A stretch of 64,000 bases of DNA from Lentisphaerae bacterium WC36 (GTDB lineage: Bacteria; Verrucomicrobiota; Lentisphaeria; Victivallales; SZUA-371), in contig CP085689.1 of the NCBI GenBank assembly GCA_020683205.1, positions 1,922,001-1,986,000 on the forward strand, read 5' to 3'. Below are positions 5,765-10,178 of the stretch, in pieces. The translations under genes and the position numbers were made by a program. Within the stretch, counting starts at the first letter, position 1, and the number at the start of each line of letters is the position of its first letter. The notes beneath the pieces were generated by a model, which was not told the DNA's origin, searched no databases, and saw nothing but the letters and a program-made list of their open reading frames with translations.

Positions 5765-7525
5765 TCACTTAAACCAACGTGGTACGCCCTTAACTCGTAA
5801 TTTTTTCACAACTTTATTGCGATAATTAATGATCTTTTTTGCACTCATTTTTAGGCTAAAATCACGATAAACGACCCCAGCAGTTGATTTCAAAATAATA
5901 TTAATATCTTTTTCTGAAACTTTAGTTAAATTATTATTTTTAAGATATTTCTCTTCAAAACCAACATCACAAATGGCAACAAATCCACCTTTATTACGCC
6001 CATAACTAACACCATAACGTAGCTGCAGTCCACAGCGCAAAAAAGCCCCGCCAACAGGAAATGTACTTGAGTAACTGCATATTATCCCATACTGATGATT
6101 TTGTTTTTTCTTCAACTCCAAAATAAAATCATAACTCCATAACTCTGGATTTTTATCAGGCGAAAAACCATCCATAAAAACAACATCAAAAATTTCAGAT
6201 TTATTAAAATTTTTAACACTGTTTCGTGCATCATCAAAAATAATTTTTATTGATTGCACACCATTATCCCAATAACCATGTTCTAATAATTGGTTAATAA
6301 TTTGGGCTCGATTTTGTGGCATAATTTTAACTGCTTCAACTAGCGTTTTGCTATCAAATTCTAACGAAACAATCTCTAGAGGTAGATCATTTTTAATTGC
6401 ACAATCTAAGGCGGCAAACGCATTATACCCCAAACCAAAACCAATATCAAGCAAACGTAAGATATGCCCTTTTTCATAAAAATATTTTAATCGCTTCGCT
6501 AAATTTGCAGTTTGCACAAATTTTTGAATACTTTCAGTTTCGGCTCCAGCCAATGAATGAAAATGCTGCTTATATTTAGGGTGATATAATGTAAATGAAC
6601 CATCAGTAGTTTTTACAGCACTCGCTGGCATCGCATCATTTTGATAATAAAATTCGTTAAAAAATTCTAAAAATTGTCCCTTTGCCATCCACCATTTAGG
6701 CACTACAACTTGATTTTCAGGAGCATCTGCAGTAATACGCATTAAATTCCAATCATTTGGCAATTTACGAATAAATTGACGTAAAGCATCAGCGTATTCA
6801 TATTCATTTGTTATATTAAATTGTGCACTTTTATCATGAAAAATTTTTGCTAATGGTGTTTTTTTCAACACCAATAAATTATGAATTTTGACGGCAAAAA
6901 AAGGCAATTTGCTGATACCTTCAGCAGTTTTTAACCAATCATTAATGTCCTCATTAGGCAAACCCAAAATAACATGCGCAGCACATTTGATATTCATTTT
7001 ATGAAGACGATTTACTGCTGTAATAACACTATCAAAATGATGCCCTCGTTTAATAAAATCTAGTGTTTTATCATTTGAAGTTTGCACTCCTAATTCAATA
7101 ATTAATTCATAACGCTCATTCAGCTCTGCTAAATAATTTAAAATTTGTTTATCATCTAAACAATCTGGCCGAGTGGCAACAATTATCACCTTAAAATCTG
7201 CTTCAGCTAGCACTTCTTCATAATATTTACGAATTGTTTCCGCATCACTATAAGTATTAGTATATGCCTGAAAATATGCGATATACGGAGCAGTTGCTTT
7301 ATAACGGTTTTGAGCATATTCTATTCCAGAAGCAACCTGCTCTTTCAAGTTTAAATTATGCCTTAAATGACGCGCTTTAGCACCATCATCTGCACAAAAT
7401 ATACACCCCTCACCATTATTGTTGACACGGTTAGGGCATGAAAACGGCAACATTATCGGGATACGATACAGTTGCCGTCCATATTCTTTAATTAAATATT
7501 CGCTAAAAAAATTTAATTTATCCAT
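5765..7525 (-). CDS. Radical SAM (YhcC/MnmL-like) fused to MnmD methyltransferase
   Basis: This two-domain enzyme of 586 residues probably finishes mnm5U at the tRNA wobble position. Residues 1-290 are a TIGR01212/YhcC-type radical SAM domain with a CX10CX2C cluster motif (Cys30, Cys41, Cys44). Residues about 300-586 match the MnmD methyltransferase half of MnmC: TDGSFTLYHP, LLDIGFGLGYN at 358-368 and MDGFSPDKNPELW at 451-463. In Gram-positive bacteria the related radical-SAM protein YtqA (MnmL) acts before a methyltransferase in making mnm5s2U (from memory of the literature). A fusion would put both steps in one chain. There is no MnmC oxidase domain. It is the last gene of queF-argJ-argB, 5 bases after argB, and ends in TGA. 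Confidence 0.85.
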   Translation of the reverse strand: MDKLNFFSEYLIKEYGRQLYRIPIMLPFSCPNRVNNNGEGCIFCADDGAKARHLRHNLNLKEQVASGIEYAQNRYKATAPYIAYFQAYTNTYSDAETIRKYYEEVLAEADFKVIIVATRPDCLDDKQILNYLAELNERYELIIELGVQTSNDKTLDFIKRGHHFDSVITAVNRLHKMNIKCAAHVILGLPNEDINDWLKTAEGISKLPFFAVKIHNLLVLKKTPLAKIFHDKSAQFNITNEYEYADALRQFIRKLPNDWNLMRITADAPENQVVVPKWWMAKGQFLEFFNEFYYQNDAMPASAVKTTDGSFTLYHPKYKQHFHSLAGAETESIQKFVQTANLAKRLKYFYEKGHILRLLDIGFGLGYNAFAALDCAIKNDLPLEIVSLEFDSKTLVEAVKIMPQNRAQIINQLLEHGYWDNGVQSIKIIFDDARNSVKNFNKSEIFDVVFMDGFSPDKNPELWSYDFILELKKKQNHQYGIICSYSSTFPVGGAFLRCGLQLRYGVSYGRNKGGFVAICDVGFEEKYLKNNNLTKVSEKDINIILKSTAGVVYRDFSLKMSAKKIINYRNKVVKKLRVKGVPRWFK

Positions 7526-7530
7526 TAATT

Positions 7531-8406
7531 TTAACCATTAATAATCATTGTACCAACACCACTGTCGGTGAAAAATTCTAATAGCAAAGAATGTTCAATA
7601 CGCCCATCAATCATGTGAACAAATTTAGTTCCAGTTTGTAATGCATGAACTGACGCATTAACCTTAGGAATCATTCCTCCTCCAATTACTTTATCTTTAA
7701 TCAAATTAGGCACTTCAGATACTTTAATGGTTGGAATCAACGTTGATTCATCAGTAAAATCACGCAAAATTCCAGGCACATCACTAACGAAAACTAATTT
7801 CTCCGCGTTCAAAGCTTCTGCAATATTACACGCCGCAATATCGGCATTAATATTATAAACTTGACCGTTTCCATCACTACCAAGAGGTGGAATAACAGGA
7901 ATAACATTATTTTTTAACGCTTCAAAAATTGGATCAGTGTCAACTTCTGCAATAGTTCCAACATGGCCTACATCTACATTATCACCAGTTTCAGGGCAAC
8001 TAGCGTACATTTTTTTAGCTTGTAAAATATTTTTCCCTGAAATTTGCTCGCCACGGCCGCCAATATCATTTACAGCTTGTACTAAATTTAAATTAACTTC
8101 ATCATGCAAAACATCGTCGACAACGCTAATTGTATCATCACAAGTTTTTCTAAATCCATGAATAAATTCTGTTGGAATTTTCATCTCAGCTAACTTAGCA
8201 GTAATAGCTTTACCACCACCATGAACAACCACAACTTTCATACCAACGGCTTCTAACAATACAATATCACGCATTGTTTTTTTAGTTAACTCAGAATCTT
8301 CCATAGCGCTACCGCCAAACTTCACTACAACAATGGCATCTCTAAACTTCTGAATATATGGCAACATTTCAACCATAATTCCAGCTTTTTTTATTAAATC
8401 TTTCAT
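7531..8406 (-). CDS. argB: Acetylglutamate kinase
   Basis: This enzyme phosphorylates N-acetylglutamate with ATP, the second step of arginine synthesis. The amino acid kinase fold is evident from VVKFGGSAM, VVHGGGKAI and the C-terminal VIGGGMIPK. I chose the ATG at 8406, preceded by GGGA, over an in-frame TTG at 8433. The length of 291 residues is normal. It is co-directional with argJ (66 bases upstream) and the radical-SAM/MnmD gene (5 bases downstream). The other arginine genes lie outside the window. Confidence 0.96.
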   Translation of the reverse strand: MKDLIKKAGIMVEMLPYIQKFRDAIVVVKFGGSAMEDSELTKKTMRDIVLLEAVGMKVVVVHGGGKAITAKLAEMKIPTEFIHGFRKTCDDTISVVDDVLHDEVNLNLVQAVNDIGGRGEQISGKNILQAKKMYASCPETGDNVDVGHVGTIAEVDTDPIFEALKNNVIPVIPPLGSDGNGQVYNINADIAACNIAEALNAEKLVFVSDVPGILRDFTDESTLIPTIKVSEVPNLIKDKVIGGGMIPKVNASVHALQTGTKFVHMIDGRIEHSLLLEFFTDSGVGTMIING

Positions 8407-8472
8407 TTGTATCCCAACATTATTATATTTCAAGAGCTTTTAAATCGATTTTAACTATTAGCTCATTTTATT

Positions 8473-9729
8473 TTAAGTATGATATTCAGCATTAATTTTA
8501 ACATATTCATATGAAATATCATTAGTCCACATTCGGCATTTTCCTTTACCATTTCCCAAAACCAACCTTACAGTAAAGTTATCTTTAGCCAAAACTTCTT
8601 TTGCTAATACTTCCTCCGCGACATCAGTTGGCATACCATTTTCTACAACTAAATATTCATCATAGTACATTTTTACATCTTCTGGCACAAAATCTACCTT
8701 CGAATAACCAGCAGCAGCAATAACTCTACCCCAATTTGGATCTCCTCCAAACCATGCAGTTTTGCATAATAATGAATTCGCAATAGCATTGGCGCACTGT
8801 TTAGCATCAGTATCATTATTCGCTCCTTCAATGTCGATTGTCACCAATTTAGTAACTCCCTCACCATCAATGACCATTTCTTTTGCTAATTTTATACTTA
8901 AATCATCTAAAGCAGTAGCAAATATTTCTTCATCTTGACTGTTTTCATCAATAGCCACGCCACTGGTCCCATTAGCTAAAATCAACATCGTGTCATTAGT
9001 ACTCATATCGCCATCAATATTAATACAATTAAATGACTTTTCAGCACTATCTCCTAATAATTTAGTAAGTTGCTGATTATTTAATTGAGCATCAGTGACA
9101 ACATAACAAAGCATTGTTGCATGAGGGACTGCTTTCATTTCAGGATCAATCATGCCTGCACCTTTAGTCATTGCGCCAATAGTATATTTTTTACCACTAG
9201 CAGCTGTAACCTCAACCGCACAATATTTTGGTACAGTATCAGTAGTCATAATTGCCTCAGCACTTAATAAATTATTATCTAATTCAGCATATTTATGATT
9301 TTTAATGGCTTTTATTGCTAAATCAATTCCATGATCTATTAATGAAAAATCAAGTTGTACACCAATACGTCCTGTTGATGAAACTAAGACATCACTAGCT
9401 CCATTTGGCAAATCTAATTTCGCTGCTATACGTTCACACATTAGTTCAGCATTTTTAATACCTTCAACTCCAGTGCAGGCATTAGCATTACCACTATTAA
9501 CAATGATAGCTTGAACCGTTTCGATCTCTTTTACACGTTTTTGACAAACTCTAACTGGAGCAGCAGCAAAACTACAAGTAGTAAAAACCCCAGCAAAGTT
9601 CGCTGGAGACTCTGAAAAAATCAATGACATATCAGGTTTACCACTAACTTTAATTCCAGCTGTAACTCCCACAGCCTTGAATCCTTTTGCAGACGCAACT
9701 CCACCATTTTTAATATATTGAAAGCTCAT
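8473..9729 (-). CDS. argJ: Glutamate N-acetyltransferase / ornithine acetyltransferase
   Basis: ArgJ recycles the acetyl group from N-acetylornithine to glutamate; bifunctional members can also use acetyl-CoA. The length of 418 residues is normal. The autocleavage site is visible as HATMLCYV, with Thr205 as the new N-terminal nucleophile of the beta chain. STGRIGV, TDTVPK and the C-terminal GGDPNWGR and YSKVDF blocks are also typical. Its presence with argB indicates the cyclic arginine pathway. It starts 23 bases after queF in the same minus-strand operon. Confidence 0.96.
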   Translation of the reverse strand: MSFQYIKNGGVASAKGFKAVGVTAGIKVSGKPDMSLIFSESPANFAGVFTTCSFAAAPVRVCQKRVKEIETVQAIIVNSGNANACTGVEGIKNAELMCERIAAKLDLPNGASDVLVSSTGRIGVQLDFSLIDHGIDLAIKAIKNHKYAELDNNLLSAEAIMTTDTVPKYCAVEVTAASGKKYTIGAMTKGAGMIDPEMKAVPHATMLCYVVTDAQLNNQQLTKLLGDSAEKSFNCINIDGDMSTNDTMLILANGTSGVAIDENSQDEEIFATALDDLSIKLAKEMVIDGEGVTKLVTIDIEGANNDTDAKQCANAIANSLLCKTAWFGGDPNWGRVIAAAGYSKVDFVPEDVKMYYDEYLVVENGMPTDVAEEVLAKEVLAKDNFTVRLVLGNGKGKCRMWTNDISYEYVKINAEYHT

Positions 9730-9752
9730 CTCATCTTTTCCTAAATTAAATT

Positions 9753-10178
9753 TTATTCAGGTTTTTTACCAACACTAGCTTTAATATTTAAAGCAATCCC
9801 ACCACGAGGCATAAAATCCCCCTCTACTTCGCACCAGCGAGGAGAACACACTTTGTCAATTTCAGTTAAAATAATATTAACTACTTCCTCGTGAAAACTA
9901 TTGTGATTTCTAAAAGAAAAAAGAAACAATTTTAAACTTTTACTTTCAACACACTCTTTATCAGCAATATATCTAATAGTAATTTTTCCAAAATCAGGTT
10001 GTCCAGTAACTGGGCATAAAGCCGTAAATTCTGGGCAATTAAATGTAATAACATAATCGCGTTCAGGATATTGGTTTACAAAAGTTTCTAATTTTGCCTC
10101 ACTTGGGCTTTTAGGATAATTACTCTCATTTGCTTTTAAAAGAGTTAGCTTATCTAATCTTGATTTATCGTGACTCAT
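9753..10178 (-). CDS. queF: NADPH-dependent 7-cyano-7-deazaguanine reductase (QueF)
   Basis: QueF reduces preQ0 to preQ1 in queuosine synthesis. This is the short unimodular form, 141 residues. The catalytic Cys55 and Asp62 sit in FTALCPVTGQPDFG, numbering that matches the Bacillus enzyme as I remember it. The QueF substrate and NADPH motif follows as ESKSLKLFLFSFRNH, with HEE just after. It is the first gene of a minus-strand operon that ends in another tRNA wobble-modification enzyme. Confidence 0.95.
   Translation of the reverse strand: MSHDKSRLDKLTLLKANESNYPKSPSEAKLETFVNQYPERDYVITFNCPEFTALCPVTGQPDFGKITIRYIADKECVESKSLKLFLFSFRNHNSFHEEVVNIILTEIDKVCSPRWCEVEGDFMPRGGIALNIKASVGKKPE

Follow-up and report, generated by a model that had tools for sequence, protein, structure and literature searches.

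The window, a 64,000-nucleotide stretch of DNA from Lentisphaerae bacterium WC36, carries at 5765..7525, on its minus strand, one intact open reading frame that starts with ATG and encodes a 586-residue protein with family matches to both of its halves. The plus strand over the same interval is closed by many stop codons. A fused frame had been claimed here in a preliminary description that was silent on strand; it is confirmed and assigned to the minus strand, on which all of the following features lie. The N-terminal half is an MnmL/YtqA-type radical SAM domain with an Elp3-like fold (residues 5-293, 6647..7513). It contains Cys30, Cys41, and Cys44, the ligands of a [4Fe-4S] cluster in a CX10CX2C motif (7394..7438), and a Radical_SAM_C subdomain (residues 212-286, 6668..6892; PF16199, 52.7 bits against a cut-off of 31.9). 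The C-terminal half has an MnmD/MnmC2-type methyltransferase fold (residues 300-577, 5795..6628), as judged from its match to 3VYW and to PF05430. Within this fold are a SAM-binding loop, GFGLG (residues 362-366, 6428..6442), Glu389 (6359..6361), and the segment DGFSPDKNPELW (residues 452-463, 6137..6172), which includes Asp452 and Phe454. The positions given previously for the three Cys residues and for DGFSPDKNPELW are exact in the translated frame. In a Pfam search, Radical_SAM, Radical_SAM_C, and Methyltransf_30 each score over their own cut-off, and an AlphaFold model calculated from an alignment of 30 fusion proteins is confident in both halves (mean pLDDT of 91.4, pTM of 0.78).

The fusion gene is preceded on the same strand by look-alikes of argB, argJ, and queF, read by eye (7531-10178, minus strand), and a gap of 5 bases separates the end of argB from it. 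QueF takes part in making queuosine, a wobble base. The argB-argJ-fusion arrangement was not found in the relatives examined, and the idea of a conserved operon with argB-argJ was consequently dropped.

Residues 5-293 match TIGR01212, which NCBI names "tRNA modification radical SAM protein MnmL/YtqA", with an E value of 4.3e-75 and 252.6 bits (curated cut-off of 180, NCBIfam profile search), in agreement with the TIGR01212/YhcC placement first suggested for this half. The three Cys residues are invariant in 30 of 30 aligned fusions and in all of the MnmL and YhcC groups compared. Comparison of the model with solved structures identifies Elp3 as nearest to this half (Z of 19-24). Elp3 itself uses radical SAM chemistry at C5 of U34. 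The TIGR01212 profile is unable to separate YhcC from MnmL, since E. coli YhcC scores 473 bits and a Bacillota MnmL scores 464. E. coli carries out the cmnm5U-to-nm5U step with MnmC; because YhcC is a TIGR01212 member from a species that relies on MnmC, the family label alone gives no proof of reaction.

Over residues 313-492, the NF033855 (MnmC2/MnmD) profile gives a match of 1.7e-24 and 86.9 bits, which is below its cut-off of 136. This miss is weak counter-evidence, because the separate MnmD proteins of Sulfurovum (109.2 bits) and of family f23 (112.9 bits) also fall under that value. The Methyltransf_30 match (PF05430) scores 67.3 bits against a cut-off of 22, and in a comparison with its order the window protein (69.6 bits) is a weaker match than most members. 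The modeled half aligns with MnmC2 from Aquifex aeolicus (3VYW) with a Z of 30.2 and an rmsd of 2.1 over 252 residues, and the next, unrelated methyltransferase-type folds follow at a Z of about 18. In E. coli MnmC, Asp178 is the likely base, Glu101 is a ligand of the SAM ribose, Phe180 is a SAM contact, and residues 66-70 form the SAM loop (Kim and Almo, PMC3648344). By alignment, the window protein keeps the equivalents of Phe67, Gly68, Gly70, Glu101, Asp178, and Phe180: GFGLG corresponds to residues 66-70, Glu389 to Glu101, Asp452 to Asp178, and Phe454 to Phe180. At the position of E. coli Asp26, the window protein has a Gln residue, and other fusions and stand-alone MnmD proteins mostly have Glu. 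This half is homologous to MnmD/MnmC2 and probably of like function, and no membership in the NF033855 equivalog is claimed. With Elp3 for one half and MnmC2 for the other, the closest solved structures all come from enzymes of wobble-uridine chemistry.

The fusion protein is probably a bifunctional tRNA wobble-uridine enzyme that converts cmnm5U to nm5U and then to mnm5U in one chain; we infer both reactions and their order. MnmE-MnmG would first place the cmnm5 group on U34, and since both are present in the window's genome, this substrate should be made. The MnmL-type domain would then use its [4Fe-4S] cluster and a first SAM molecule to generate a 5'-deoxyadenosyl radical, which would remove the carboxymethyl group to give nm5U. 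With a second SAM molecule, the MnmD domain would methylate the freed amine to yield mnm5U, Asp452 being the likely base. The protein would in this way cover both steps of E. coli MnmC, its radical SAM domain standing in for the FAD oxidase.

A different division of labor has to be weighed against this proposal. The methyltransferase half could be a true MnmD whose substrate, nm5U, comes straight from MnmEG and ammonium, as has been proposed for stand-alone MnmC2, and the radical SAM half could be a YhcC-like protein with another job, its fusion serving no more than tRNA binding or joint expression. Such a route to nm5U exists, in that MnmEG is able to form nm5U directly from ammonium (PMC3936742). 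In keeping with it, Aquifex MnmC2, which among solved structures stands closest to the methyltransferase half, works without an oxidase, and YhcC itself belongs to TIGR01212. The radical SAM tree bears on this question from both sides. Its YhcC anchors come from E. coli and Aeromonas, and its MnmL anchors are the TIGR01212 genes of Anoxybacillus, Listeria, and Enterococcus that immediately precede MnmM. In Anoxybacillus and Listeria the MnmL-MnmM pair adjoins leuS, which is also the gene order of B. subtilis ytqA-ytqB. The fusions are found on the MnmL side with a support of 98/94, and at the conserved positions that tell the two proteins apart they share six residues with MnmL and three with YhcC, both of which argue against a YhcC-like radical SAM half. 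In the AU test, however, a grouping of the fusions with YhcC is borderline and not clearly rejected (p of 0.0504; p of 0.234 for fusions with MnmL). At the level of sequence, the tree thus favors MnmL over YhcC only narrowly. Further weight against separate jobs comes from the fusion itself and from family f23, in which the halves co-occur as separate genes; both point to one pathway. When the lack of any other over-cut-off enzyme for the cmnm5 step in the phylum's fusion genomes, described next, is also considered, this division of labor is an unlikely explanation.

The window's genome contains each half once only, in the fusion protein, and in the fusion genomes of its phylum each half likewise occurs essentially once and within one protein. 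NCBIfam and Pfam searches detected no C-terminal FAD oxidase (MnmC1) domain in the fusion protein, no MnmC1 (TIGR03197) over cut-off and no PF06962 (MnmM) match in the window's genome, and no other over-cut-off enzyme for the cmnm5 step in the phylum's fusion genomes. In a detailed check of 74 genomes, the MnmC1 oxidase is over cut-off in none, and MnmM is present in four, none of which has the fusion. In a sample of 240 genomes from the phylum, the fusion is present in 46, MnmM in 38, and an over-cut-off MnmC in 4 (frames of 635-653 amino acids, all in family f10); none combines the fusion with MnmM or with an over-cut-off MnmC. The non-overlap of fusion and MnmM has a p of 1.4e-4 when counted by genome. 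Counted by family, it is unremarkable (p of about 0.15), since the distribution of each solution tracks its clade. These data answer one check named in the preliminary description and support one of its proposals: within the phylum, and for over-cut-off matches, fusion genomes lack the MnmC oxidase and MnmM, and the gene inventory together with the kept catalytic residues supports the radical SAM half as occupying the place of the E. coli MnmC oxidase.

Other genomes of the phylum show yet another gene order. An MnmC1/ThiO-like FAD oxidase gene lies directly before or overlaps MnmM at L166:2508-4249 (G128) and L167:2767-4442 (G039), and the same arrangement occurs in G172, G228, G001, and G108. 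The oxidases are below both the MnmC1 and the ThiO cut-offs, and the MnmM of L167 scores 186.9 bits with NF053511. This organization suggests a further arrangement in which an MnmC1-like oxidase is paired with MnmM.

Apart from the 46 complete fusions, the sample of 240 genomes includes one (G194) in which the fusion is interrupted by contig ends, five of family f23 in which the two halves are separate genes, one with MnmD alone, and seven with only a stand-alone TIGR01212 protein. The window's genome belongs to the same order as Victivallis vadensis (G009; DSM 14823) and Lentisphaerota bacterium zth2 (G147), both of which carry the fusion. A scan of named genomes identified full-length fusions in Victivallales (including V. 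vadensis), other Lentisphaerota, Kiritimatiellota, and Verrucomicrobiota, as well as in Desulfobulbales (Desulforhopalus, Desulfogranum, and Desulfobulbus) and Campylobacterota (Sulfurovum, Sulfurospirillum, and Malaciobacter). Full-length fusions are also found in metagenome-assembled genomes labeled Spirochaetia, Gemmatimonadetes, and Termititenax (Spirochaetota, Gemmatimonadota, and Margulisiibacteriota). The search across PVC genomes proposed at the outset was too narrow, and a PVC-only fusion is rejected, since several phyla outside PVC have it. The full-length fusion is present in 2 of 148 genomes from the phylum of Desulforhopalus and, with the Sulfurovum fusion as query, in 3 of 121 genomes from the phylum of Sulfurovum, both samples including the center genome. 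This sporadic occurrence outside the home phylum fits horizontal transfer. In a separate setting, the 4.7-kb plasmid pSR1 of Selenomonas ruminantium, which has four annotated genes, carries a B12-binding radical SAM gene that overlaps a TIGR01212 gene (L178:1-2445).

To follow descent, a tree of 68 radical SAM domain sequences, 36 of them from fusions, was used. A branch with a support of 100/99 sets all 36 fusions apart from the rest of the tree, except that f23, G114, and G216 contribute stand-alone proteins nested within the fusion group; the AU test rejects a clade made up of the fusions only (p of 0.0008). The nesting of these stand-alone proteins points to later splits or losses. The simplest reading of the tree would be one old fusion event followed by splits and losses. 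Several independent fusions are not needed, as a single branch holds them all. The stand-alone radical SAM proteins of G114 (L045) and G216 (L046) are encoded in genomes that have neither MnmD nor MnmM, for which the predicted end product is nm5U or cmnm5U. In Desulfobulbales genomes that have the fusion (L154-L157), TIGR01212 is represented a second time, by a divergent stand-alone protein whose branch is long (1.66).

The methyltransferase half is not intact in every member. Three Campylobacterota genomes encode an ordinary stand-alone TIGR01212 protein in addition to the fusion, and in two of the three there is, besides, an MnmD gene of its own and an oxidase resembling MnmC1 that narrowly misses the cut-off (169 and 149 bits, cut-off of 174). 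The Campylobacterota fusions L132, L133, L138, and L143 have lost the motif tryptophan and tyrosine of the methyltransferase. The separate MnmD is intact in two such genomes and, in Sulfurovum, lies about 1.3 kb from MnmG. The Campylobacterota lineage therefore probably does not rely on the fusion as its only enzyme, and decay of the fused methyltransferase may be under way there. In Lentisphaeria, two fusions (L124:2965-4707 and L145:2953-4743) likewise have a decayed methyltransferase half and an intact radical SAM half. This decay leaves the window protein untouched.

Two other readings of the window protein were considered. It is improbable that the radical SAM half makes a different C5 group on U34 that is then capped by the fused methyltransferase, which would be an undescribed wobble modification. 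It is also very improbable that a single half is active in the window's organism and the other is a relic. Such an outcome is suggested by the eroded motifs of L124, L145, L132, L133, L138, and L143, by the stand-alone radical SAM members of G114 and G216 within the fusion lineage, and by the comparatively weak Methyltransf_30 match of the window protein; against it, this protein keeps all key residues in both halves, and its model is confident in both. Lastly, a sequencing or assembly artefact or a frameshift joining two genes, for which no point speaks, is refuted, because the full-length architecture occurs in those 46 of 240 phylum genomes and in many independently sequenced organisms, with full-length frames of 29-52% identity and the same junction in dozens of independent genomes.

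The methylaminomethyl group on U34 decides the reading of split codon boxes. On the preferred reading, that of one chain performing both steps, the last two steps to mnm5U have been solved in at least three ways: by MnmC in one chain, by MnmL and MnmM as neighbors, and, as predicted here, by MnmL-MnmD in one chain. Because the fusion is never found alongside MnmC or MnmM in the sample, the phylum is a good setting in which to study the re-wiring of a conserved tRNA modification, and a one-chain radical SAM/methyltransferase could be a handy, self-contained enzyme for MnmL chemistry. The word convergent, applied earlier to this re-wiring, is justified insofar as MnmD/MnmC2 has acquired two fusion partners of unrelated origin. 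In 2024, in J. Bacteriol., Jaroch et al. reportedly named MnmL, and their abstract is said to mention fusion proteins and alternative arrangements in the pathway; the exact MnmL-MnmD fusion may already have been described.

In comparison with known systems, the fusion shares with the Bacillota pair MnmL (YtqA)/MnmM (YtqB) the TIGR01212 family of its N-terminal half, the predicted step, and, by a narrow margin, the MnmL side of the tree, but its partner is MnmD and is fused, whereas that of MnmL is MnmM, encoded by an adjacent gene, and its residues differ at many sites outside the core. E. coli YhcC is also a TIGR01212 member but is stand-alone and on the other side of the tree, with the borderline AU result noted above. 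The radical SAM fold resembles that of Elp3, and both proteins are tied to U34 (by prediction for the fusion); unlike Elp3, the fusion has no acetyltransferase domain, and it scores 54.9 bits against a cut-off of 350 for the Elp3 model. Aquifex MnmC2 has about 30% identity with the C-terminal half and shares its C-terminal extension to residue 577, but is a stand-alone protein, whereas the methyltransferase here is joined to a radical SAM domain. E. coli MnmC (MnmC2-MnmC1) has a homologous methyltransferase, with Asp178, Glu101, Phe180, and the SAM loop kept, and a two-step outcome like that predicted here; the fusion, however, has an N-terminal radical SAM domain where MnmC has a C-terminal FAD oxidase, so that the domain order is reversed. 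All of the components are known, and what is distinctive is that MnmL is paired and fused with MnmD.
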